Origin: an uncultured Oscillospiraceae bacterium
GTDB taxonomy: Bacteria > Bacillota > Clostridia > Oscillospirales > Oscillospiraceae
Length of the DNA: 64,000 nt
Assembly: GCA_947628185.1 (NCBI GenBank)
Contig: CANQYW010000002.1
Coordinates: 1-64,000, forward strand
Direction of reading: 5' to 3'
Part shown: one piece after another, positions 21,696-53,843 of the stretch
Numbering within the stretch: the stretch's first letter is position 1
Layout of the letters: every line of letters begins with the position of its first letter
Position numbers and translations under genes: made by a program
Notes under the pieces: model-generated
Databases searched by the model: none
Seen by the model: only the letters and a program-made list of their open reading frames with translations
What the model was told of the DNA's origin: nothing

Positions 21696-23096
21696 ATGGC
21701 ACTCCACATATCAAAAAATGACGAGGCGTTCAGGGAGTATGCCCTGGGCGCCTCGCCCATGCCTATGATATTCAAGGTCTGTATGCCGCTGGCCATATAC
21801 CAGGCGCTGCAGGCCGTTTTTCGGATAGCCGACGCGCTGCTGGCGGCCCACATAAGCTCCAGCGCCGTCTCGGCCATCTCGGCCCTGGCGCAGATAACGC
21901 TGATGATCAACGCCATCGGCACGGGCCTCGCCGCCGGAGGCAGCATAAAGATATCCGAGGCCTACGGCAAAGGCGACTACGAGCTTGTGCGGCGGCGGGT
22001 GGCGACGCTCTACGTCCTGGCGGTGGTGATGAGCCTCCTCGTGGCGGTGACTCTGGTGCCCTTCGCCGTGCCCTTCCTGCGGCTCCTCCGGACGCCGGAG
22101 GATCTGATTGCCGCCGGGGCCGGGTACTTCAGGATCGAGATAATGAGCTTAGTGGTGAGCTTTCTCGGAAACGTCTACATCGCCATTGAGCGCAGCCGCG
22201 GCCACAGCCGCCGGATAATGGCCCTCAACATGGCGGTGCTGGTGGTGAAACTCACCCTCTCCGTCCTCTTTGTCTACGCCCTCCATGGGGACGTGGTGAC
22301 CATAGCCCTCGCCACGCTCATCTCCCAGTGCGTCATTCTGGCCTACGCTCTCTGGCGTATGCCGAAGGACGAGGGGGCATTCCGGTTCTCATTAAAGTCC
22401 GTGAGTTTCCGGGGCGGGACGGTGCTGCCCATCCTCAACGTCTCCTACCCCATAACCTTCGAGAAGGGCCTCTTCAACGCCGGGAAGGTCGTTGTGAACT
22501 CCATGGCCAAGGACTACGGCTCCCTGACCGTGGGGGCGCTGGGCATCTCCAACAACATCGGCGGCCTCACCACCAACTGGCAAGGGGGCCTCACCGACGG
22601 CGCCACCGCCCTCATAAGTCAGAACCGGGGCGCGGGGAAGTACCGGCGCACCAGGGACATATACTTAAACCTCCTGCTCCTTGAGACGGCCATCGGCCTT
22701 GCGGGCCTCGCCATCGTCTTCTTCGCCCTGCCGTGGCTGGCGGACGTCTTCGCCCGGTCGGAGAGCAGCTATGACGCCTCCTTCCGGGACATGATAATCT
22801 CCATCCACCGCTGGGAGATGTTCGGCTACATAGCCCTGGGCGTGAACTCCGCCACCGACGCCCTCCTCTTGGGGTACGGCTACTCAAAGCGCACGATGGT
22901 GCTCAACGTCCTCCGGGTCTTCGCCTACAGGATACCAGTCCTCTGGTTCTTCCAGCGTTTCACCTCCCTTGGTGTGGAGGCCGTGGGCGTCACCATGTCC
23001 GTTAGCAACTTCCTCGTGGCGATAACCTCCCTCCTCTTCGCCCTCCCGGTCCTGCGTGAGATACGAAGGCTCCAGGATAGCGAGGAGAAACCATAA
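21696..23096 (+). CDS. MATE family efflux transporter
   Basis: 466 residues with about twelve transmembrane segments in two repeats; starts with a short hydrophilic stretch and then MIFKVCMPLAIYQALQAVFRIADALLAAHISS, typical of MATE N termini. It follows uxaA after 26 bases without a terminator, so it is probably the third gene of the uxa operon. The substrate is unknown; the position suggests export of an intermediate or of a toxic co-metabolite of pectin degradation, but that is inference. It is clearly distinct from the MATE protein at 4153-5667. Confidence 0.87.
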   Translation: MALHISKNDEAFREYALGASPMPMIFKVCMPLAIYQALQAVFRIADALLAAHISSSAVSAISALAQITLMINAIGTGLAAGGSIKISEAYGKGDYELVRRRVATLYVLAVVMSLLVAVTLVPFAVPFLRLLRTPEDLIAAGAGYFRIEIMSLVVSFLGNVYIAIERSRGHSRRIMALNMAVLVVKLTLSVLFVYALHGDVVTIALATLISQCVILAYALWRMPKDEGAFRFSLKSVSFRGGTVLPILNVSYPITFEKGLFNAGKVVVNSMAKDYGSLTVGALGISNNIGGLTTNWQGGLTDGATALISQNRGAGKYRRTRDIYLNLLLLETAIGLAGLAIVFFALPWLADVFARSESSYDASFRDMIISIHRWEMFGYIALGVNSATDALLLGYGYSKRTMVLNVLRVFAYRIPVLWFFQRFTSLGVEAVGVTMSVSNFLVAITSLLFALPVLREIRRLQDSEEKP

Positions 23097-23114
23097 AAAT
23101 ATATCCCGCGATGA

Positions 23115-23705
23115 TCACTTAAACCAGAATAATCCCTCGTTGGACGCCTGTATTTTTGCGCCGTTCGGGACCTGTCTCATGATTTGAATTACATCCATGT
23201 AATCAGGCGAGGGAGAAATAAGGCCCATGAATGACAGAACAATGCAGATCGTCAGCAGCCATTTCAATTTTAGAGGACACATCAGAAAAACGCAAAGCGG
23301 GATGATCCCCAGCAGGACAGGAGCCAGGGACATAATAATATACCGGCGTTTGCTGATCGGAAAAGCGGAGAACGCATAAGCCGCGACTTTCTTTATTGAG
23401 ATTCCCACGTAAACAGTCGCCTCTTTCGGGTAGCAAACCGCGTGAAGAAATTCATGGACGGGCATCAGTAAAAAACCGATAAGAAACCCTATCGGCATAA
23501 AGCGCAGGTCGAAGATAAACTCCGTACTTGCGCTTTTTTTGATGAAAACAGCGATAAAACACAGGAGCATTGGGACGATCCCATATGGCACAGACGCGCT
23601 CAAGAGATCATCCGGCCTCTCTATCTTCACCGCGCCCTCGGTAAGCGGAATTTCGGGAAATTCTTTTCCCCAAGGCTGGTTCCCCTCCCATATTATTCTT
23701 GGCAT
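23115..23705 (-). CDS. DUF3267-like membrane protein with HEXXH-type motif
   Basis: 196 residues, about four transmembrane helices. The segment FLLMPVHEFLHAVCYP contains HEFLH, the metal-binding pattern of DUF3267/M50-like intramembrane metallopeptidases, at the end of the second helix; a second conserved element is not obvious, so activity is unproven. It begins with MPRIIWEGNQPWGKEFPEIPLTEGAVKIERPDD, a soluble N terminus. A GGGAAGAG site precedes the ATG. The base composition is clearly lower in GC than the uxa operon it faces, as in the three genes that follow upstream. Confidence 0.7.
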   Translation of the reverse strand: MPRIIWEGNQPWGKEFPEIPLTEGAVKIERPDDLLSASVPYGIVPMLLCFIAVFIKKSASTEFIFDLRFMPIGFLIGFLLMPVHEFLHAVCYPKEATVYVGISIKKVAAYAFSAFPISKRRYIIMSLAPVLLGIIPLCVFLMCPLKLKWLLTICIVLSFMGLISPSPDYMDVIQIMRQVPNGAKIQASNEGLFWFK

Positions 23706-23802
23706 ATTGGTCTCTTCCCTCGATATTCAGTCTTCAACCTCGCCCGACAGGTAAAGTGCAGGACGGGTTTTTCTGTTTTGCAACTACACCGGGGATGGCC
23801 CT

Positions 23803-24615
23803 TTAGTTCTTGAAGGGTCTTTTCCATGCAATCAACCCGCATATTATTATCGCAATAACCGCTCCTGTAGTCCAGTAATTATTGAAAAAGATAAGTGAAG
23901 GAGCCTCATTGATAATGATACCTCCAATACCCATATTGTAAAGAACGCCAGCGACTGAAACCATAGCGTTATGGGTAACGTGTAATGCAATCGGTATCAG
24001 TAGATTTTTTGACTTGAGAAACGTCACGCCGTACAAAAGGCCGTTAATTGTAGCTGCAAGCGCGTTATATGGACTATGTATATGAAACAATCCAAAAAGC
24101 AGTGAAATACTTATAAGTGATAATACCTTTCCTTTGATGCTCTCGTAAGGCGTCAAACCAAAGTAGCGAAAAATAAGTTCTTCAAGAACTGGGGCAATAA
24201 AGACACTTGACAACGAAAGGACAAGTAATTCTGGGATTGTTTCCACATCTATCGCAGCAACAATTTCATTGTCGTTCATTATATATAACTCGCAAAGAAA
24301 TCTCTGCTCAAGAATGAAAAAAGCAGCAAAAAATATAGTTGAATAAACCAGAGTGCTTGCCGAAAGTTTCTTGATTTTATATTCGTCAAACGCCGAAAAG
24401 CATTTAGAATAAATCTTTTTCCCGATAAAAAAAGTAATAACGATGACTGCAATATATAAAATTATCTCAATAAGATAGTGATACCATCGCACATCCTGCT
24501 CAGGGACTGCCATTCCAATCAAAATGGTGAATAGGATGGAGTACAAGGCCACAAGAACAGGTAAAAAAACTTTCATCACATTTCTTCGTTTCTTCACAGT
24601 GATACCACGCCCCAT
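23803..24615 (-). CDS. CPBP family intramembrane metalloprotease
   Basis: 270 residues, about seven to eight hydrophobic segments. All three CPBP (Rce1/CAAX protease-like) motifs are visible: EELIFR (Glu145-Glu146, Arg150), LFGLFHIH (F174, H178) and HVTHN (H212, N216). An ATG 13 codons further in (MKVFLPVLVALY...) is an alternative start. Such proteins often serve in bacteriocin self-immunity or in processing prenylated or peptide substrates; nothing nearby indicates a bacteriocin. The gene is AT-rich compared with the chromosome around it, with AAA/AAT-rich codon use, and likely acquired. Confidence 0.85.
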   Translation of the reverse strand: MGRGITVKKRRNVMKVFLPVLVALYSILFTILIGMAVPEQDVRWYHYLIEIILYIAVIVITFFIGKKIYSKCFSAFDEYKIKKLSASTLVYSTIFFAAFFILEQRFLCELYIMNDNEIVAAIDVETIPELLVLSLSSVFIAPVLEELIFRYFGLTPYESIKGKVLSLISISLLFGLFHIHSPYNALAATINGLLYGVTFLKSKNLLIPIALHVTHNAMVSVAGVLYNMGIGGIIINEAPSLIFFNNYWTTGAVIAIIICGLIAWKRPFKN

Positions 24616-24647
24616 TTCAGCTAATCTTTACTCTTAACACATGTAGT

Positions 24648-24685
24648 ATTATACCATCCAAATGTGAAGAAATCTACTGCTCGTA
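24648..24685. repeat. 38-bp direct repeat, copy A
   Basis: Matches the copy at 25479-25516 at 33 of 38 positions; four of the five differences are transitions. Read on the minus strand it ends with TATAAT 40-odd bases before the CPBP start, so it may include that gene's promoter. Confidence 0.7.
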
Positions 24686-24724
24686 ATCAGTTTTGACGTG
24701 TAGTGCAGCAAACGCAGAAATATG

Positions 24725-25423
24725 TCAAACCGAAAACACAAATGCTTTTATCAACTTTCTGCTGTTTTCATCGGTCTCATAGGAAAACTCAGGATGCCAT
24801 TGGACTCCCATAATAAACTTATGGGAAGGCAAATATATACCTTCAATCAAGCCATCTTCAGAAGTGGCCATCACTTTAAAATCGGGTGACAACTTTTTGA
24901 TTGCCTGGTGGTGATAGCTGTTTACTCCCATTTGTTCTTTACCCAAAATATCATGGAGGGGCGTGTCCTTTTGTATCGTGACTTGATGAGCTGCCCTGTT
25001 ATACGGCGGTCTCATGTGATGGTCGATGATGCTGCTATGCTCGATCGCCAAATCTTGATACAAAGTCCCTCCATAGCAGGCGTTCATAAACTGAATTCCA
25101 CGGCAGATACCCAAAACAGATTTATCTAACTCCACGGCATTATTTAAGATATACCGCTCCATTTCATCCCGTAATTCGCAACTTGGGCCGCACCACGGTT
25201 TCCTCTCGGCATTATAAACAGCCGGGGACACATCATGTCCGCCGGTCAGCAGGAATCCCCCGCATATCTCAAGGAAATACTCTAATTCCTCTGTCTTAGA
25301 TGTCAGAGGGAGCATCAAGGGTATCGCATTTTCCGCCTCTAAAATTTTCATGTATCCCGGCAACATCCAGTAGCTCTCTTTTTCATCGTCATAAAGCGGT
25401 ATGACGCCAATTATTTTTCTCAT
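24725..25423 (-). CDS. Gamma-glutamyl-gamma-aminobutyrate hydrolase family (peptidase C26)
   Basis: Class I glutamine amidotransferase-like hydrolase, 232 residues. The nucleophile elbow LGICRGIQFMNACYGGTLYQDL carries the catalytic Cys, and GVQWHPEFSYE the His-x-Glu pair; GGFLLTGGHDVSPAVYN is the oxyanion region. The family includes PuuD, which cleaves gamma-glutamyl-GABA in putrescine use, but no putrescine genes are nearby so the substrate is unsettled. The ATG at 25423 follows GTGGGAGG closely. It is AT-rich, and lies between two copies of a 38-bp repeat, as though carried as a cassette. Confidence 0.85.
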   Translation of the reverse strand: MRKIIGVIPLYDDEKESYWMLPGYMKILEAENAIPLMLPLTSKTEELEYFLEICGGFLLTGGHDVSPAVYNAERKPWCGPSCELRDEMERYILNNAVELDKSVLGICRGIQFMNACYGGTLYQDLAIEHSSIIDHHMRPPYNRAAHQVTIQKDTPLHDILGKEQMGVNSYHHQAIKKLSPDFKVMATSEDGLIEGIYLPSHKFIMGVQWHPEFSYETDENSRKLIKAFVFSV

Positions 25424-25478
25424 TATCCTCCCACCTCGCAAGTCCGAGTTTACGTTCCACGCCGCTGTTCGCTCTCAC

Positions 25479-25516
25479 ATTATACCACCCAAATGTGAGG
25501 AAATCTACCGCCCGTT
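25479..25516. repeat. 38-bp direct repeat, copy B
   Basis: Partner of 24648-24685. It touches the stop codon of the GNAT gene (25515) and on the minus strand supplies a TATAAT about 55 bases before the C26 hydrolase start. Confidence 0.7.
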
Positions 25517-26018
25517 AAGAGCGTTTTGATATCGTCATGTTACATCTGCTCCACAGCTCGTCTTTATATGAAAATACGTCTTTTTCGACACATCTCTCGG
25601 TAAAGCCTATCCTCTCGTAGCAGCGTTTTGCTGCCGCGTTTTCATTGAAAACATTCAGCTGCACCGATTCGGCTCCTGTTATTTCAAACGCATACAGTAG
25701 AGCAAGCTGTATCATTTCCCTGCCGTAGCCTTTCCCGCGCAGTTTATTGTCCACGATCACAGATGCCAAAAAGCCCTCGCTGCTCTCCGTATTCAAAGAA
25801 TATCTAAAAAATCCGATCGTGTTACCGGGGTCGTCTGTCGCCGCAAAGGCGCAGGCCATCCACCGTTCCATAGTAATTTCCAAAAAGTTATGAAATGCTT
25901 GCTCCTTGACTGGATATGGGAAATTATTCGCGCACCACAGTGCATGATCTCTCTCGTTGTCTATCCACCCGGCTAAATATTTAAAATCCTTGCTCGGTAT
26001 GTAAGGTCTCAGTCTCAT
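25515..26018 (-). CDS. GNAT family N-acetyltransferase
   Basis: 167 residues with the GNAT fold: the acetyl-CoA loop is LRGKGYGREMIQLAL (about 92-106), preceded by the beta-4 strand LASVIVDN and followed by SVQLNVFNENAAAKRCYERIGF, the usual motif B region. It begins MRLRPYIPSKDFKYLAGWID. The substrate is unknown; the layout resembles RimJ/RimL-like acetyltransferases. It is the first (most upstream) gene of an AT-rich four-gene block. No convincing promoter was found. Confidence 0.85.
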   Translation of the reverse strand: MRLRPYIPSKDFKYLAGWIDNERDHALWCANNFPYPVKEQAFHNFLEITMERWMACAFAATDDPGNTIGFFRYSLNTESSEGFLASVIVDNKLRGKGYGREMIQLALLYAFEITGAESVQLNVFNENAAAKRCYERIGFTERCVEKDVFSYKDELWSRCNMTISKRS

Positions 26019-46343: not shown

Positions 46344-46385
46344 CAAGGACAGTGCGGTGGAAAATCCGCGCTGTCCTTGCTTTTT
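46344..46385 (+). terminator. Rho-independent terminator of the ABC operon
   Basis: Fourteen-base-pair stem (46344-46357 with 46366-46379, one T-G pair) followed by CTTTTTG, 12 bases after the permease stop. Confidence 0.85.
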
Positions 46386-46444: not shown

Positions 46445-46699
46445 TCAGATTATCGTATCGTCAAGGAGGAGATCCATCACGCCGATATTGAGGACGCCGT
46501 TGTCGTCATACCACCGCTTTCTGATGTCGTGGCGCACGATAATCTTCGGGAACGAGTCGCCGGTCAGGGCGAGGGGCCTGCTTTCAGCGGCGGTCTTCTC
46601 CTCCGTCCCCAAGGCGTAGGCGGACTGGATGTAGGTCTTTTTGCCGCCTCTGGCGGCGATAAAATCGATCTCTACAGGCGGAGAAAGGTCAATGGGCAA
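46445..46699 (-). pseudogene. C-terminal remnant of a DUF4143-type ATPase
   Basis: An 84-codon frame: PVEIDFIAARGGKKTYIQSAYALGTEEKTAAESRPLALTGDSFPKIIV ... GVLNIGVMDLLLDDTII. This is the C-terminal, nuclease-like DUF4143 end of the widespread AAA+ DUF4143 protein family (normally ~400 residues). The ATPase part is absent; only a TTG could start the frame and no ribosome site is seen. It lies at the left edge of the restriction-modification island and is probably a fragment left by an insertion or deletion. Confidence 0.65.
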
Positions 46700-46797: not shown

Positions 46798-49575
46798 CTA
46801 ACAATGGGTACATCTTGCGATAATTCCGTCCACATCAGCAATATTGTAGGAAACATCACTGCACCACACGCCATAGTCACCGCATTCATTTACCGCTGCG
46901 ATCCATTCTTTTAGCGCCTTACGTTTTTCGATATCCCGTCTGGTCTCCTGTCCTTTAGTCTCTAAAACTAGCGTCTTTCCATTGTCCAAGCGAATTAAAA
47001 AATCAGGAATATATTTTCTGAAAACACCGTCAAACACGTAGAGGATCTCAAATCCCAGATGGTCATTTTTCGCCCATGCTTTCACATGAGGATTCTTTTC
47101 CAGAATGTAGCTTTCTGTTGATTCCCATGCACTATCAAAGACACAGTGGCTAATATGCGAATGTTGAGTTATATAACAGGGCTTACTTGTGAACCATGTT
47201 GGCATATCTCTGGTAGAACGCACTTTCTTGTTTGCATCGAATATCGGGACTATGCGCTCGGTCTGCTCCAGCTTGATGAAACTCCAAAGGTGCTGCACGA
47301 TCCGACTCATATTCATCATGTACACAATACGTTGGCGCAGAGGGTCTGTGTTAAACAGTGGAGGATTGATCACAATAGCACCGGATTTCAAGTATCTTTC
47401 CACCAGCCGGATAACCTGTCCAAGCAATGTAAATTTTGTTCCTTTTTCTTGCCAAGAGGTTTTCATTAGATTATAGACCTGCCCTGAGGCCTCAAAGATA
47501 ATACTCTGCATTCGGAATTTTGCGTCCAGTTTCTCCAAGTCGATTTCTGTGCATTTGGTCAAATCAGTTTTGCCATCAATGGTAGGAGCAAGATCTGCGC
47601 GGAGACGAGTATCGGCAGCGTCAAGCTCCAGAGTGTCGATTTTATCCAAATCAATAGTCAGCTTAGGTTTAAAAGTTCTATCCAGTCTTATAATATTGGG
47701 CCAGGAGATTTCAAATTTCGCCCGGTCCTTTACAACTTCTACCTGAGTTTTAGGCGGAGTAACAGGAGAAGTCCCCTGCTCGTCCGACTCATGTGGAAGG
47801 AAGGAAAATGGAATGCCAAAAATATTCACATATTCTGGTGTGAACATATCACTTCCATCTGCCAAATCATAGGAGGTTCGGCGCAATCCTCGTCCAATTA
47901 CTTGCTCACATAAAAGTTGACTGGAAAAAGCCCGCAGCCCAAGAATGTGAGTCACTGTTTTTGCATCCCAACCTTCGGACAGCATTCCGACAGAAATCAC
48001 GTTGCGGATCTGCTCACCGCGCCTCCCCCTTTGACCAACAGTGTCTACTGTTTCCCGAAGAATGGCAGCAGCATCTTTCTTGCTTACGTTTTTATCGTCA
48101 CCGTCATCAGATATCTCCGATGTCTGGGCCACGACATTCTCTGCTGCATCCATCGTTTTTGAATCGATATGGATCGTGAATTCCGGCTTACAAAGCTCAG
48201 GAACAGAAATGTGCCCATGATCAAACGCATATTTAATTCGGGCCGCAGTCTCTGTGCGGTTCGCAACTGTGATCATAACCGGAGGCACAACAGATCCTGC
48301 CTCCGTCCACACTTTGTAGAGTTCCAGCCAGTCTTTCCCTAACAAATAGTACGCCTGAGTTAAAAGAGGGGGCAGCGGCTCTTCTTCACCTGCAGAACGG
48401 TTAATATCAGTTCGCACAGTCGGATCGTTGTAAATGTGATACAGCTTGGAACGGAAACTGACAGCGTCCGGTGTTCCATCATCACGGACTACTACACGCG
48501 GGGTCTTTACAAGGCCGGATTCGATCCCGTCGTTTAGCCCAAAATCGCTGACGATCCACCCAAACAACGCCTCTTCGTCATTTCTTTTCCCGGAAGGCGC
48601 AAACGGAGTAGCCGAAAAATCATAACAGGTCAAAATATTCCGCGTCTTATGGATACGATCCAATCCGCTGATCCAGATCGTCGCTTGCTGTTCGGCCGCT
48701 TTCTGTTCTTTGGTCTTTGCCTTGTTTTCCGGATTTTTACGCCAAGCATGGTGGGCCTCGTCGTTGATAACAAGGATATTCCGAGCATTGGACATCTCGC
48801 CCAACACTTCACGGGTATAAGCCTCGTCACTTTTGGCGCCGCGCTTATCCACACTGCGACGCTTTGCGACGGTCTCTTCGCTGTCCCATGCTAAGGCCTG
48901 CCAGTTGATGATCATCACCTTGCCCTGGCGCAGCTTATCCATAAGGCCAATGGGAACCACATTGAACTGAACATAGTAGTTGTCATCTCCACCGGTCTGG
49001 AGGACCTGCAAACGGCTTTTTACGGTCAGTCCAGGGGCCACGATGAATACATATTTGGAGAAACGCCTGTCTTGTGGATATGTAACCTTGTTGCAGATCA
49101 TCCAGGCAATCAGCATAGCCATCACAGTGGTCTTGCCACCGCCGGTACACAACTTCGTGCAGATCCTCCGGAATAGACCGCCATCGCCCGGAATATCAAT
49201 GCCGACTTTTTCTGAATCCGGGGCCTCTGTCAGCCAAATCAGTGTCTCGATAGCATCCATCTGACAATAAAAGAACTGATACTGCCGCGCCGTGGCGTCG
49301 TTCCAATGCTCCAACAGCTTATGGGTCACGCCGGTCACGCCGGGATAACCGGCCTCCCGCCATGCCTTGACGCGGGGCCGGATTCTGTTGACCAACGGCA
49401 GTTCAATAAATTTACCGATATCGTTATACTGGTTGGAGCCCTGTCCGGCGACGAAGTAACCGGCTGGGCGTCGCCCTTCCTCACGAATAAAGGACTGGCT
49501 GTTTAGGTCATATTTCCAGTGATGAGTCGGCTCCCGAAAGGCTGAGTTGATAATCAGTTGATCGATTCCTGCCAT
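46798..49575 (-). CDS. Type III-like restriction enzyme, Res (helicase-nuclease) subunit
   Basis: 925 residues from the ATG at 49575. Superfamily 2 helicase: Walker A CTGGGKT at about 144-150, Walker B/DEAH VINDEAHHAWR, motif VI region VIGRGLRRTSYD. The C terminus carries a PD-(D/E)xK nuclease pattern, IPDFLIRLDNGKTLVLETKG. The ATG shares its A with the Mod stop codon (TGATG), so translation is coupled. Res needs Mod for recognition and cuts when it meets unmethylated sites. Last gene of the island operon. Confidence 0.9.
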   Translation of the reverse strand: MAGIDQLIINSAFREPTHHWKYDLNSQSFIREEGRRPAGYFVAGQGSNQYNDIGKFIELPLVNRIRPRVKAWREAGYPGVTGVTHKLLEHWNDATARQYQFFYCQMDAIETLIWLTEAPDSEKVGIDIPGDGGLFRRICTKLCTGGGKTTVMAMLIAWMICNKVTYPQDRRFSKYVFIVAPGLTVKSRLQVLQTGGDDNYYVQFNVVPIGLMDKLRQGKVMIINWQALAWDSEETVAKRRSVDKRGAKSDEAYTREVLGEMSNARNILVINDEAHHAWRKNPENKAKTKEQKAAEQQATIWISGLDRIHKTRNILTCYDFSATPFAPSGKRNDEEALFGWIVSDFGLNDGIESGLVKTPRVVVRDDGTPDAVSFRSKLYHIYNDPTVRTDINRSAGEEEPLPPLLTQAYYLLGKDWLELYKVWTEAGSVVPPVMITVANRTETAARIKYAFDHGHISVPELCKPEFTIHIDSKTMDAAENVVAQTSEISDDGDDKNVSKKDAAAILRETVDTVGQRGRRGEQIRNVISVGMLSEGWDAKTVTHILGLRAFSSQLLCEQVIGRGLRRTSYDLADGSDMFTPEYVNIFGIPFSFLPHESDEQGTSPVTPPKTQVEVVKDRAKFEISWPNIIRLDRTFKPKLTIDLDKIDTLELDAADTRLRADLAPTIDGKTDLTKCTEIDLEKLDAKFRMQSIIFEASGQVYNLMKTSWQEKGTKFTLLGQVIRLVERYLKSGAIVINPPLFNTDPLRQRIVYMMNMSRIVQHLWSFIKLEQTERIVPIFDANKKVRSTRDMPTWFTSKPCYITQHSHISHCVFDSAWESTESYILEKNPHVKAWAKNDHLGFEILYVFDGVFRKYIPDFLIRLDNGKTLVLETKGQETRRDIEKRKALKEWIAAVNECGDYGVWCSDVSYNIADVDGIIARCTHC

Positions 49576-52130
49576 CACTCGTCACCTATCCTTATCACTT
49601 TCAGGCTTTCAATTCCCCGGTCATCAATAATTTTGACAGCGATTTGAGTGTTGATCTGAGCGCTGAACCATAACGATTCGTTCCCGGCATATTTCTCGAT
49701 CAATTCCATATCGATCTCCGCCCTGAGGGTCTTGGCAAGCTTTGTCCAGCCGTCTTTCTTGCCGCCCATAGGGAAAAAGACCTGCTTGGGTTTAATACAC
49801 AACCCGTCGTAATCGGTATCCAGCATCCACATAGCGATCTTGTCGGTGCCGCCCGATTTCACAGCGCCCCTGGTAACGTCATAATAGTCAAAGCCGTTCA
49901 CGCGAACCTTGAATTTTGTTTTGCTGCGCTTGTCCTGGATCAGCTCCACATCCGGCTGGCCCACCAGCCAGAAGGACTGGTCGGAGGAGCGCTTTTTCTT
50001 CAGATCCTCCGTCATCAAATCGGTGTTCATCTGAGCTTTCAGCAGTGTCACACCGGGCCAGTTTGTCTCGTCGATATCCTTGGCCGCCTCCGGGTCGAAC
50101 TGAAACGCGGCAAAAATGATGAGTTTAGGAGAGGGCCGCAAGGTTTCCGCCTCGTCCATGGCCAGAGCGACCATCCTGGAATCCAGAGGCTTAGTCTCCC
50201 CGGCAAAGCAGATCACAGCCCGGCGTGGCGTGTCCTCTTTTGTCTCCGCCTCCGCCTGTAGGAACTTCGTCCCGGACAGCGGCTCCACGCGGCTGAATTC
50301 CAGTCGGCTGCCTCCGCGACCCATGATACCTGTAGCGAAAAGCTGATCCCGCCAATCGGACTGTTTGGCGCTGAAGTCTTCCTCCTCCTCGCCTATCTCG
50401 TCCAACGGTTTCACCACGGGCGCTGGAAGCGCCTCCACGGTAAAGGGGCCGGAAATGCGAATCTTGGTCTTGTCGATCTCCGGCTGGTCATAGAGCGTCT
50501 CAGTGGCTGGCGGCTCGTTATTGGCGATGGATTTCAGCGTGATATGCGGCACCGTCTTATAGACGAAACCGCTGCCTACACCTTGTTCCTCATGGGCCAG
50601 TTTGTAATAGTCGAATGTGGCCGTCATAAGCCGCTGCTTGGCCAGCGTGATGGCAACCCGCGAGGTGTCGCAGGTGATCCACCGACGGCCCCACTGCTCG
50701 GCCACGTATGCGGTTGTTCCGCTGCCGCAGGTGATGTCCAAAACAAGATCACCGGGGTCTGTGGTCATAAGTATACAGCGCTGTAATATTTTCTCATTTG
50801 TCTGTACAGCATAAATCATATCAGGGATTTTCCCAGCAGTGTCTTCCCATAAATTCGTAATCTCTATTGCCGGAAAATCGGAAACATAAAATTTGTATCC
50901 GTAACCTTCTTTTGTTTTAATTAGGCGATTATTTTTAATTAACCGTTCTATCTGCTCCCGTTTCCCTCGCCAAACATAACCTTTTTTTGGGCAAAAATCA
51001 CTGCCGTCAAGAGCAACTGTGAATTTTCTTTCTGGGTCATCTCCCCTTTCAATCACTTTATCAACACGGAACACTTTTGCATGTTGACTTGTAAATAAAA
51101 TGTTCCGTTTCTCTTCCGTTGTCAAAGGGCGAACTTCTCCGCTAACGAATTCACCCCACAAGGCAAGTTTTTTGGGATCTTCGGTTGAACCTTCAAGTCC
51201 TGTCCTCTCTAAAAACAATTTGTGCGTTTTTTCCCCAACACAATCAATCTTTTTCCCATACCATAACAGATAATTAAATGAATTACGTATGATTTTGGAG
51301 GTAGGCGTTCCTTTTTTCCAGATAATCGTTGCACATTCATTTTCTTTTCTAAAAATCTCATCCAATACACAACGTACTAAGTGTACATTCTCATCACTTA
51401 TCTGTACAAACACACTCCCACTGTCCGCCAGCAGTTCCCGCGCCAACAGCAGACGGTCACGAAGATAGGTGAGATAGGAATGAATTCCCAGTTCCCAGGT
51501 ATCCCTGAAGGCCTTGATCATCTCCGGCTCCTGGGTCAAATCCTCGTCCTTTCTGTCCTTCACATCCCGCTTATCCACAAAGGGCTGGAAATTGGAGCCG
51601 TACTTGATACCGTATGGCGGATCGATGTACACCATCTGCACCTTTCCGGCCATGCCTTCCTTCTCCATGAGAGAGTTCATGATGACCAGACTGTCGCCCG
51701 CGATCAGCCTGTTGGTCCAATCGACGCCGTGCTGGTAAAATTCGATGCTCTCCTTCCGGCGGCGCATCCGTTCGGCGGGAGTCTCCGCAGGGAATAAAGA
51801 CTGCTGTCCCTCCAGCTGTCCCTCCAGTGCATTCGAGTATTCCTTCATGACTCTTGAAATGATGCTGTGCGGTATTATTGACTCGTGGATATGGATGGAG
51901 GAAGTGGGCACATCAAAGCTCGTCCCTTCCGCTTTACCGGCCCATTGAAGGGTTGGGTCGAGATGGGGGTCAAACTGGTAGGTCTTTACTTTTTCCTCAG
52001 CCTTATCGTGCTGGGCCATACCGACCGGGGGATTGTTGGTACGTTTCTTGTCGTCGTGGGTATAGGCTTCGATGTCTCGCATTTTCCCGGCATCGACGAC
52101 AACATCCTGCTTTTTCCTTGGACGCGCCAT
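49575..52130 (-). CDS. Type III-like DNA methyltransferase, Mod subunit
   Basis: 851 residues. Beta-class N6-adenine methyltransferase order: catalytic DPPY at 170-173 (VQMVYIDPPYGIKYGSNF), then a target recognition region, then the SAM-binding motif DITCGSGTTAYVAEQWGRRWITCD at about 455-478. The C-terminal ~300 residues resemble the Res-contacting part of Type III Mod proteins. AAGGAGG precedes the ATG and overlaps the end of the previous gene. The middle (about 50780-51420) is visibly more AT-rich than either flank, suggesting a swapped recognition domain. Target site cannot be read from sequence. Confidence 0.9.
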   Translation of the reverse strand: MARPRKKQDVVVDAGKMRDIEAYTHDDKKRTNNPPVGMAQHDKAEEKVKTYQFDPHLDPTLQWAGKAEGTSFDVPTSSIHIHESIIPHSIISRVMKEYSNALEGQLEGQQSLFPAETPAERMRRRKESIEFYQHGVDWTNRLIAGDSLVIMNSLMEKEGMAGKVQMVYIDPPYGIKYGSNFQPFVDKRDVKDRKDEDLTQEPEMIKAFRDTWELGIHSYLTYLRDRLLLARELLADSGSVFVQISDENVHLVRCVLDEIFRKENECATIIWKKGTPTSKIIRNSFNYLLWYGKKIDCVGEKTHKLFLERTGLEGSTEDPKKLALWGEFVSGEVRPLTTEEKRNILFTSQHAKVFRVDKVIERGDDPERKFTVALDGSDFCPKKGYVWRGKREQIERLIKNNRLIKTKEGYGYKFYVSDFPAIEITNLWEDTAGKIPDMIYAVQTNEKILQRCILMTTDPGDLVLDITCGSGTTAYVAEQWGRRWITCDTSRVAITLAKQRLMTATFDYYKLAHEEQGVGSGFVYKTVPHITLKSIANNEPPATETLYDQPEIDKTKIRISGPFTVEALPAPVVKPLDEIGEEEEDFSAKQSDWRDQLFATGIMGRGGSRLEFSRVEPLSGTKFLQAEAETKEDTPRRAVICFAGETKPLDSRMVALAMDEAETLRPSPKLIIFAAFQFDPEAAKDIDETNWPGVTLLKAQMNTDLMTEDLKKKRSSDQSFWLVGQPDVELIQDKRSKTKFKVRVNGFDYYDVTRGAVKSGGTDKIAMWMLDTDYDGLCIKPKQVFFPMGGKKDGWTKLAKTLRAEIDMELIEKYAGNESLWFSAQINTQIAVKIIDDRGIESLKVIRIGDE

Positions 52131-52895
52131 TTAGTTGGCCTCCTTCGCTTGTAATGTCCCTGTCTTAATGTGGTAGGCAATTTCGTGGTGAGTGCAGAAA
52201 TCTATAACCCGAGTCACACATTGATTGTAATACGATTGATAGCCATCATATTCAGTAACCATCCTATTATAGTGGAGACGCCCGAAAATGATTTTGTCGA
52301 CAAATGAGACAGCATCCAGGATATCTGCCAGGTTCTGTTCCACAATGTTGGGTGTTGGATATGGCTCTATGCTGACCCAGGTTTTGCACCCGCTGTCATG
52401 CAAAAATCTCAGTGCTTGGATTCGCGCTTGGATTGGTGCTGCTCCCGGCTCGTATTCATGGATAAAATGATCGTTCAAGGAAACGACTGTGATTCCATAT
52501 TCATTTTCTCTGGAGAGAGTAACCAAACATTCTGGGAGAAGGCCCTTTGTCAAAACAGAACAACGGATTCCTTGTGCGTTTGCCTCTTGCAATACCTTTA
52601 TACTCATCCGCGCAATCTCATCATGTTCATACATAAATGGATCCGTTGTAAAGCAAAGATGGAGCTGTTGAATCTTATCCTTGAACCTGGGGAGCTCCTG
52701 TCGAAGAAGTTCCAAAGTATTTTCTACAATCTGCGGCTGGATCCATTCCTCATAGCTTTTTACATTTCCAAATCGCTTTGCCATCATGTAAGCATAACAA
52801 GGGTATCTGCATCCGTGGGAACACCCTAAAGCATGATTCAGTGTATAGTCCCCATACTCCACCCCGGTTTTATATATCAGGGATTTTCGTTTCAT
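52131..52895 (-). CDS. Three-Cys-motif radical-SAM-like partner protein
   Basis: 254 residues from the ATG at 52895 (GAGG nine bases before; an ATG three codons earlier is possible). Near the N terminus lies GCSHGCRYPCYAYMMAKRF: Cys25, Cys29 and Cys33 in CX3CX3C spacing, like but not equal to the CX3CX2C cluster motif of radical SAM enzymes. The rest follows a TIM-barrel-like pattern (LHLCFTTDPFMYEHDEIARMSIKVL, CSVLTKG, YGITVVSLNDHFIHEYEPGAAPIQARIQAL, TWVSIEPYPTP), similar to SPL-type proteins. It ends immediately before mod and follows tcmP by about 11 bases. Reaction unknown. Confidence 0.8.
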   Translation of the reverse strand: MKRKSLIYKTGVEYGDYTLNHALGCSHGCRYPCYAYMMAKRFGNVKSYEEWIQPQIVENTLELLRQELPRFKDKIQQLHLCFTTDPFMYEHDEIARMSIKVLQEANAQGIRCSVLTKGLLPECLVTLSRENEYGITVVSLNDHFIHEYEPGAAPIQARIQALRFLHDSGCKTWVSIEPYPTPNIVEQNLADILDAVSFVDKIIFGRLHYNRMVTEYDGYQSYYNQCVTRVIDFCTHHEIAYHIKTGTLQAKEAN

Positions 52896-52906
52896 AGCAT
52901 TCATCC

Positions 52907-53758
52907 TCAACTGGGATTTTGGTCTTTTAATATATAATTTGCAACTTTTAAGGCTAAACTGATTGCCGATGCACGTTTGTTGGATATTGCAAAGCAGAAG
53001 AGAAAAAGTGGGTTTTTCTTGCGGTTATATAGAATCCTTGAATTGTTTGATACCTTAGCAAAGGTGAGGCCAAGGCGTTCTTCGATGTATTGTTGGAGTC
53101 CAACTCTGCTGACTTCACCTATCATTTCGGTCGTGCCGAAAAGGTTCAGCTGTGGGTCTTCGTGATAGAACCGATCCTTCCAAGTGTTATCGCCAAAAAC
53201 GGAATTTAACTTTGCCTCCCACGCTGGATCCATCTCCCCCTTTCGTTTCATCATTCGGTTAACTGCACTAAAAGGGAAAAGATACCATACATCTATTGCT
53301 TCCGTTGCAGAAACTGCCTGAAGTGTTTCCCATCTGACATCTGCTGCATAAGGGTCAAGAAACAAAACCGCCCTTGCCTTACGCCAATTTACACGTTGAC
53401 AGATATTAAGTAAGATTTGATTGCAATCTCCCCGTTCAATCCTTACCTTATATTTTATATCGGGAAATTCGCAATTGACCATCTCTGTAAGTTCATCAGC
53501 AAAAGACTTCTTCTTTTCAATAAAAATGTATTGTGCGAATTGTCCTTTTGATTGCAAAGCAAGTTTAGCGGAGCCATCTATCTCCTCATACTGATCTCCA
53601 TCGCCGATTTTGATTTTTCCTGTTCCGGCAAAGGCATCAATGTATATAAGCTGGAAATTTTGGCTCTTTAGTGCCGTTGTGTAAAAGTTCAGGTAATTGG
53701 ATAAAATGCTAAGTTTCTCAACTGTCCACGGTCCACCAAATTTTTGTTTCGTACTCAT
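52907..53758 (-). CDS. tcmP: Three-Cys-motif partner protein TcmP
   Basis: 283 residues from the ATG at 53758 (GGGAGA just before; an upstream in-frame ATG lacks a site). The N terminus KFGGPWTVEKLSILSNYLNFYTTALK is typical of TcmP. It then shows IDAFAGTGKI (about 42-51), like a SAM-binding motif I, and VLFLDPYAADV, like a catalytic DPPY/DPPF motif IV, so it may be a methyltransferase-fold protein. The family is named for its genomic pairing with three-Cys-motif proteins, exactly the neighbour here. First gene of the island operon. Confidence 0.85.
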   Translation of the reverse strand: MSTKQKFGGPWTVEKLSILSNYLNFYTTALKSQNFQLIYIDAFAGTGKIKIGDGDQYEEIDGSAKLALQSKGQFAQYIFIEKKKSFADELTEMVNCEFPDIKYKVRIERGDCNQILLNICQRVNWRKARAVLFLDPYAADVRWETLQAVSATEAIDVWYLFPFSAVNRMMKRKGEMDPAWEAKLNSVFGDNTWKDRFYHEDPQLNLFGTTEMIGEVSRVGLQQYIEERLGLTFAKVSNNSRILYNRKKNPLFLFCFAISNKRASAISLALKVANYILKDQNPS

Positions 53759-53814
53759 TGTGTTCTCCCGTTTCATAACGAAATATATCCATTTTCACAT
53801 ATCTCGACATTTGT

Positions 53815-53843
53815 ATTATACTAAATTATGCAAAAAATAGCAA
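53815..53843 (-). promoter_or_regulatory. SigA-type promoter of the tcmP-RM operon
   Basis: Minus-strand TTGCTA (53838-53843) and TATAAT (53815-53820), 17-base spacer, about 55 bases before the tcmP ATG. No other promoter was noticed within the operon. Confidence 0.65.

Follow-up and report, generated by a model that had tools for sequence, protein, structure and literature searches.

TcmP proteins and their three-Cys partners form a described gene pair, in which a TIGR04474-family TcmP is accompanied by a partner of the DUF5131 or the radical S-adenosylmethionine (SAM) kind and which corresponds to the PADLOC candidate PDC-M41. Type III-like restriction systems of the BPTD_3080 family (NF046055) combine a restriction endonuclease/helicase, Res, with an adjacent PF01555 methylase. 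Here we describe a four-gene island that joins the two, found in a 64,000-nucleotide stretch of contig CANQYW010000002.1 (assembly GCA_947628185.1) from an uncultured Oscillospiraceae bacterium; "the window" refers to this whole stretch. Like the described pairs, the island has a TcmP over the family cut-off and an adjoining three-Cys protein, but its pair runs into mod and res, and its partner belongs to a CX3CX3C class that lies below the DUF5131 cut-off and scores 23 bits against PDC-M41B. Like BPTD_3080 systems, it has a Res (1086 bits) with an adjacent PF01555 methylase; what sets it apart from the 18 other loci of this kind that were compared is the presence of the pair. Two further systems invite comparison. 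According to the accessible part of the source, PrrC is kept silent by a type I enzyme to which it is genetically linked (PMC2610378). It is likewise an additional gene associated with restriction genes; the pair differs in matching no nuclease family and in having partners of all restriction types. The SspABCD-SspE phosphorothioate defence (PMC9646914) shares the logic proposed below, a separate modification module with a mark-sensing nuclease, but its modification genes are of another kind, and the mark of the window system is a predicted one. Our literature search, with most subscription papers beyond reach, found no link of the TcmP/three-Cys pair to restriction operons, no mention of PDC-M41 in the papers searched and no published function for either family. 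In the accessible parts of three papers, TcmP appears in a table line of a prophage survey, which has entries for DNA methylases and PDC candidates as well (PMC12429752), in a Sinorhizobium expression table that groups it with the defence gene Hna (PMC12445080), and in an expression-table line of a biofilm study (PMC7387457).

The four genes, tcmP, the three-Cys radical SAM gene, mod and res, follow one another in this order on the minus strand, nearly without gaps. The features of the island, in window coordinates, are:

53815-53843, minus strand: promoter-like site TTGCTA-17-TATAAT ahead of tcmP (consensus scan, 10 of 12 matches)
52907-53776, minus strand: tcmP, likely start ATG at 53758 with GGGAG ahead of it; predicted methyltransferase of the RlmJ/Trm1 fold
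53618-53638, minus strand: TcmP motif I, DAFAGTG, predicted SAM binding
53348-53356, minus strand: TcmP motif IV, DPY(A)
52131-52910, minus strand: three-Cys radical SAM gene, likely start ATG at 52895; PF04055 over cut-off
52797-52823, minus strand: CX3CX3C motif CSHGCRYPC, predicted iron-sulphur site
49575-52130, minus strand: mod, type III-like N6/N4 DNA methyltransferase (PF01555 107 bits, MTase_III 485 bits)
50788-51351, minus strand: stretch of mod diverged from locus L003, probable target-recognition domain (blastn gap against L003; GC 0.376)
46798-49578, minus strand: res, BPTD_3080-family restriction endonuclease/helicase, likely start ATG at 49575 (NF046055 1086 bits)

A preliminary description of this DNA had proposed that the four genes, tightly spaced behind one recognisable promoter, make up one composite defence unit. 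The presence, direction and spacing of the genes were confirmed with homologue-like starts, which leave 11 bases between tcmP and the radical SAM gene, none between the latter and mod, and a one-base overlap between mod and res; taking the longest open reading frames (ORFs) instead gives 4-base overlaps at the first and third joints. The promoter claim held in part: the TTGCTA-17-TATAAT site is present, but shuffling the sequence yields about as many sites of this kind (10.5, standard deviation 3.7, versus 13 found in the region), which makes a promoter ahead of tcmP plausible and not significant. The layout suggests that all four genes share a transcript.

The window TcmP scored 197.1 bits against TIGR04474 (cut-off 53) and 310.6 bits against the PADLOC model PDC-M41A, and the CX3CX3C gene at 52131-52910 directly adjoins tcmP, the neighbour expected for TIGR04474. 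In an alignment of 48 sequences, the D, A, F, A and G of motif I and its last G are invariant. Motif IV reads DP[YF][GA] across the family (DPYA in the window), with no DPPY. RlmJ, the 23S rRNA adenine-N6 methyltransferase, was the best fold match of the structure model of TcmP, and RlmJ and Trm1 were the top matches, suggesting that TcmP, like these two enzymes, is a nucleic-acid methyltransferase that depends on SAM, and that it would act on an exocyclic amine. TcmP differs from RlmJ by its 14-16% identity and its motif IV, which is DPPY in Escherichia coli RlmJ and DPSY in RlmJ relatives; the window protein combines neither of these motifs nor clear sequence similarity with the shared predicted fold. 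Such a fold would be compatible with, rather than proof of, a second modification read by the restriction part, as the preliminary description had supposed.

The window three-Cys protein scored 39.5 bits against the radical SAM family PF04055 (cut-off 29.5), and its three cysteines are invariant in an alignment of 28 sequences. The canonical radical SAM cluster motif is CX3CX2C; the window protein has CX3CX3C, and over 188 redundant pair loci we found CX3CX3C in 72, CX6CX2C in 111, CX3CX2C in one and no match in four. Its match to DUF5131/Gp37-Gp68 (PF07505) reached 25.0 bits against a cut-off of 28.9, although precomputed domains list DUF5131, and that to PDC-M41B 23.1 bits over residues 14-101 only. 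The structure model is poor around the cysteines. We predict that the protein works like a radical SAM enzyme. Its relatives number at least 7,829 among 8,000 scored candidates. The class to which it belongs, with the signature GCxHGCxYPCYA, is present in 14 of 398 genomes sampled evenly from the phylum (E up to 1e-30), and in 10 of these 14 TcmP lies beside it, with less than 400 bases between the matched stretches, judging by where the matches lie; in the same sample, 33 genomes hold TcmP at E up to 0.001.

Mod scored 107 bits against PF01555 (cut-off 26.7) and carries a DPPY motif, while Res scored 1085.9 bits against NF046055 (cut-off 800) and carries a GGGKT Walker A motif, a DEAH motif and a nuclease-like D-x13-ETK motif. 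A DPPY-bearing Mod thus adjoins a Res with helicase and nuclease-like motifs, the composition expected of a type III system.

We searched for the same arrangement in genome contigs with TcmP or three-Cys relatives (the best 80 of 430), in viral contigs (60 loci with TcmP in one search, 32 loci in another), in the phylum sample and in plasmid records. Since these searches were seeded with window relatives, the fractions reported below do not describe TcmPs at large. The four-gene order recurs in L003, a metagenome-assembled contig of an uncultured Clostridiales, whose four proteins are 57, 67, 69 and 82% identical to those of the window. Within mod, the stretch 50788-51351 has diverged between the two, whereas most of the remaining sequence aligns, as if the target-recognition domain had changed while the pair stayed the same. 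In three other loci, L028 (Omnitrophota), L058 (Acidobacteria) and L140 (a viral contig, whose tcmP was detected by tblastn only and which was left out of the pair counts), res, tcmP, a DUF5131-type three-Cys gene and mod run in one direction, placing the pair between res and mod, within the restriction genes. In L122 a DUF5131-tcmP pair faces a convergent mod-res, and in L125 tcmP does so, with no three-Cys partner detected in the fetched stretch. Plasmids were set aside as a source of four-gene copies: among the plasmid records none spans as much as 80% of the island, and TcmP never occurs together with this res.

The restriction partners of the pair extend well beyond the window type. Lachnospiraceae and related loci (L010, L011, L013, L015, L017, L018 and others) have the pair followed by a different type III mod, at a spacing of 9 bases in most, with res next where the contig continues. 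A second, longer TcmP is usually found ahead of the pair in these loci; at about 375 aa it lies directly ahead of the short TcmP (L010:7841-8965, and similar positions in L008-L018), and in other loci the long TcmP alone pairs with a radical SAM gene. The L257 partner is an SNF2-mod-res set. Type I partners are hsdM-hsdS-hsdR in L256, hsdM in L317 and type I genes in L094, and MmeI- or Eco57I-type partners occur in L062, L032, L041, L071 and L323 as well as, on the opposite strand, in L336. A HindIII-like endonuclease follows the pair at L329:9494-10813 (131 bits in Pfam), where a DUF1156-type methylase is convergent to it, and at L327:9883-11136 (129 bits; by similarity). GmrSD partners were found in L006, L232, L313 and L318, possibly mirroring the SspABCD-SspE logic, and an McrBC partner in L335. 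In L238:11009-13123, mod is broken into three open pieces, whereas the reading frames of tcmP, the radical SAM gene and res are uninterrupted.

The closest full-length relative of the window TcmP among the best 80 of 430 genome contigs is that of L002 (75% identity, SH-aLRT 99). DNA similarity between L002 and the window spans tcmP and the radical SAM gene and ends about 20 bases into the following gene; about 550 bases further, L002 carries a different type III mod and res, which match those of the window no better than E 0.02. L002 and the window combine closely similar cassettes with different restriction engines. Well-supported branches of a TcmP tree of 95 sequences, built by a quick method and labelled from the first-count panel described below, which misses partners outside that panel, force at least nine switches between a detected restriction partner and none.

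We then counted restriction genes around 140 pairs, made non-redundant at 95% TcmP identity. The nearest restriction gene lay within 200 bp of 25 pairs, within 3 kb of 5 more and within 9 kb of 1 more, with none around 109. By distance, 27 of 174 genes at 0-200 bp, 20 of 596 at 200 bp-3 kb, 2 of 563 at 3-6 kb and 1 of 330 at 6-9 kb were labelled restriction, compared to 1 of 720 genes in 40 arbitrary 20-kb control regions. This first count is partly circular because each of the twelve label families drew some or all of its seeds from neighbours of pairs. In a strict recount, which kept one pair per 70% cluster and borrowed labels around pairs only from other clusters, restriction genes made up 13 of 130 genes within 200 bp, 12 of 433 at 200 bp-3 kb and 3 of 672 at 3-9 kb (control, 1 of 720), and 16 of 102 pairs had one within 3 kb. 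The 13 of 130 against 1 of 720 rules out chance adjacency, and the fall to near background beyond 3 kb weakens an explanation by a simple defence-island neighbourhood. Redundant loci counted, 39 of 41 restriction genes within 200 bp share the strand of TcmP. A label-free Pfam scan of proteins of at least 200 aa, covering 101 of 106 adjacent and 106 of 409 distant ones, agreed with the label-based enrichment of restriction genes, even though it dropped five rows of the window's own mod and res families, which lowers the adjacent count. PF01555 (8), PF02384 (5), Peptidase_S24 (5), MmeI (4), Eco57I (4) and ResIII (4) headed the adjacent list, while no family exceeded two members among the distant proteins, which included PF01555 and D12 methylases.

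The link differs between classes of three-Cys protein. The window class, in 73 loci forming 40 clusters at 90% identity, has a restriction gene within 200 bp in 19 clusters and within 3 kb in 2 more; at 75% identity, 9 of 19 clusters have one. For the DUF5131 class (115 loci, 90 clusters) the corresponding numbers are 8 and 4. These counts used an enlarged label panel seeded partly beside the counted pairs and are purely descriptive. The window class is the one most tightly linked to restriction genes.

These results support, beyond the window, the composite unit proposed in the preliminary description: restriction-modification operons that have recruited a TcmP/three-Cys cassette. The support is partial, since restriction genes are strongly enriched beside the pair but the pair is rare when seen from the restriction side, and the partners proved broader, extending to types I, II, III and IV. 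The explanation that we tentatively prefer, while placing it somewhat short of probable, is that tcmP and the radical SAM gene are a portable two-enzyme nucleobase-modification cassette recruited by restriction operons, here adding a second DNA base mark alongside the type III-like system. TcmP would methylate the exocyclic amine of a nucleobase and the three-Cys enzyme would perform radical chemistry on the same base. The product would mark self DNA, and many restriction nucleases would tolerate it, so that type I, II, III and IV engines could all share the cassette; phages carrying it would use the mark to shield their own DNA. In the window, the usual methyl mark at specific sequences would come from Mod, and the cassette would contribute a second mark irrespective of the target sequence of Mod. 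A bolder version, which we regard as doubtful, is that a radical-SAM-made, target-independent base mark is a universal plug-in that restriction engines of all four types have repeatedly taken up to serve as a second signal of self, and that these are the first radical-SAM-dependent restriction-modification systems.

Several results weigh against the recruited modification cassette. On the pair side, 86 of 102 pairs in the strict recount, 19 of 40 clusters of the window class and 78 of 90 of the DUF5131 class have no detected restriction gene within 3 kb, and the restriction label clusters on the TcmP tree no better than when shuffled (80 of 500 shuffles were as low), suggesting that the restriction partnership comes and goes. 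On the restriction side, BPTD_3080 Res exceeds the cut-off in 18 of the 398 phylum genomes, and none of 18 other BPTD_3080-type loci (17 over the cut-off, all but the window, plus one weaker match) has a TcmP or three-Cys gene in its flanks, some of which are shortened by contig ends. Among plasmid records, 12 hold TcmP and 42 this res, with no record in common, and around TcmP on the three plasmids that carry annotation, out of four, no gene is named as restriction. As for the chemistry, the sequence-profile match of TcmP to RlmJ is weak (hhalign E 0.031, with only two RlmJ rows) and was set aside as proof, and motif IV is DP[YF][GA] rather than DPPY. Finally, GmrSD and McrBC cut modified DNA, and such partners fit a self mark less simply. 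A second type III Res matched in nine genomes; the full-length match, L238, carries the pair, which was not seen in the eight genomes matching over the N-terminal half only. The rarity of adjacency from the restriction side suggests that the pair is an optional add-on, and the counts from both sides that restriction systems manage without the pair and the pair without restriction systems.

That most loci have no detected restriction gene also favours an independent defence pair, already represented in PADLOC by TcmP as PDC-M41A, which would be co-carried with restriction genes on mobile elements and share their transcription without sharing their biochemistry. Repressor-type families are common nearby (Peptidase_S24 in 5 and IrrE-like Peptidase_M78 in 3 of the 101 adjacent proteins), and an upstream gene often stays constant while the downstream cargo varies. 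This gene codes for a protein of about 645 aa with an HECVH stretch and a helix-turn-helix (HTH), for example at L318:5526-7463 on the minus strand, with relatives in 19 loci, or 15 after removal of identical-pair copies; Pfam detected Peptidase_M78 in L010 and L335, and HTH_3 in L318 one bit below the cut-off. In 11 of the 15 loci it is divergent, 331-468 bases upstream of the first tcmP; elsewhere it lies 0.9 kb (L329) or 2.2 kb (L084) upstream, divergent past the SNF2 gene (L257) or downstream (L335). The engines downstream of it are of the type III, GmrSD, HindIII-like and Eco57I types, with none seen in L012 and L321. The regulator supports joint regulation of pair and engine. It would also be compatible with a mobile backbone whose cargo varies, and part of the recurrence could be due to such a backbone, a further count against recruitment. 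We nevertheless consider an independent pair unlikely, given that the restriction enrichment is found right beside the pair but not 3-9 kb away, that three loci have the pair lodged between res and mod, and that the four genes keep their order in both the window and L003, with protein identities of 57-82%.

Six viral loci (L086, L107, L112, L114, L120 and L141) share another neighbour of TcmP, of about 267 aa, of which one member, L086|10, reads like a CI/S24-type repressor. The pair genes are divergent in many viral loci.

The 645-aa protein, with its predicted ImmA/IrrE-HTH make-up, resembles a fused form of the CapP-CapH switch; according to the accessible part of the source, CapH and CapP switch immune operons on after DNA damage (PMC13373217). 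This resemblance, together with the placement of the pair within restriction operons, as for PrrC, and the fact that the best fold matches, RlmJ and Trm1, act on RNA, would suit an embedded fail-safe, in which an RNA-modifying or toxic effector is silenced by the restriction complex and freed when a phage blocks restriction. Neither the TcmP nor the radical SAM protein, however, matches a nuclease or toxin family, or an ABC-ATPase family, in Pfam or NCBIfam at E up to 1, and many loci, viral contigs included, have the pair without a detected restriction partner; we judge such an effector quite unlikely.

Partners of every restriction type would also be accounted for if the pair removed or altered protective base modifications of phage DNA so that any restriction enzyme could cut, and the radical SAM protein is distantly like spore photoproduct lyase (17.7 bits, below the cut-off of 27). 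But viral contigs carry the pair (the 60 loci with TcmP), where unmasking would be harmful, and removal needs no methyltransferase fold, leaving this explanation very improbable.

Unrelated restriction operons carrying the pair provide a concrete biological setting for the function of TcmP and three-Cys proteins, and hint that a nucleobase mark made by a radical SAM enzyme may have a part in self/non-self recognition. If it were borne out, recruitment of a modification cassette would add an entry to the catalogue of phage-defence DNA modifications and to the ways in which restriction stays safe or becomes harder to escape.

The composition of the island fits acquired DNA, as the GC content of tcmP (0.405), the radical SAM gene (0.435), mod (0.506) and res (0.481) lies well below that of the flanks (0.588 and 0.631, against 0.41-0.51). 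The next ORF upstream of tcmP is an 897-aa gene, which we take to be pyruvate phosphate dikinase. TcmP was present in 1 of 18 relatives searched, and in an empty-site search six relatives align only from the 897-aa gene onward, so that the comparison does not fix the insertion boundary. On the other side, a 14-pair terminator-like hairpin at 46344-46379 and an 84-aa minus-strand ORF at 46445-46699, which has no Pfam match and reads like the tail of a DUF4143-type ATPase, are perhaps a scar of the left edge of the island. A second dip in GC content (0.38-0.47) lies at 23001-26000 of the window and contains genes for a DUF3267 protein, an Rce1-like protease, a Peptidase_C26 protein and an acetyltransferase.
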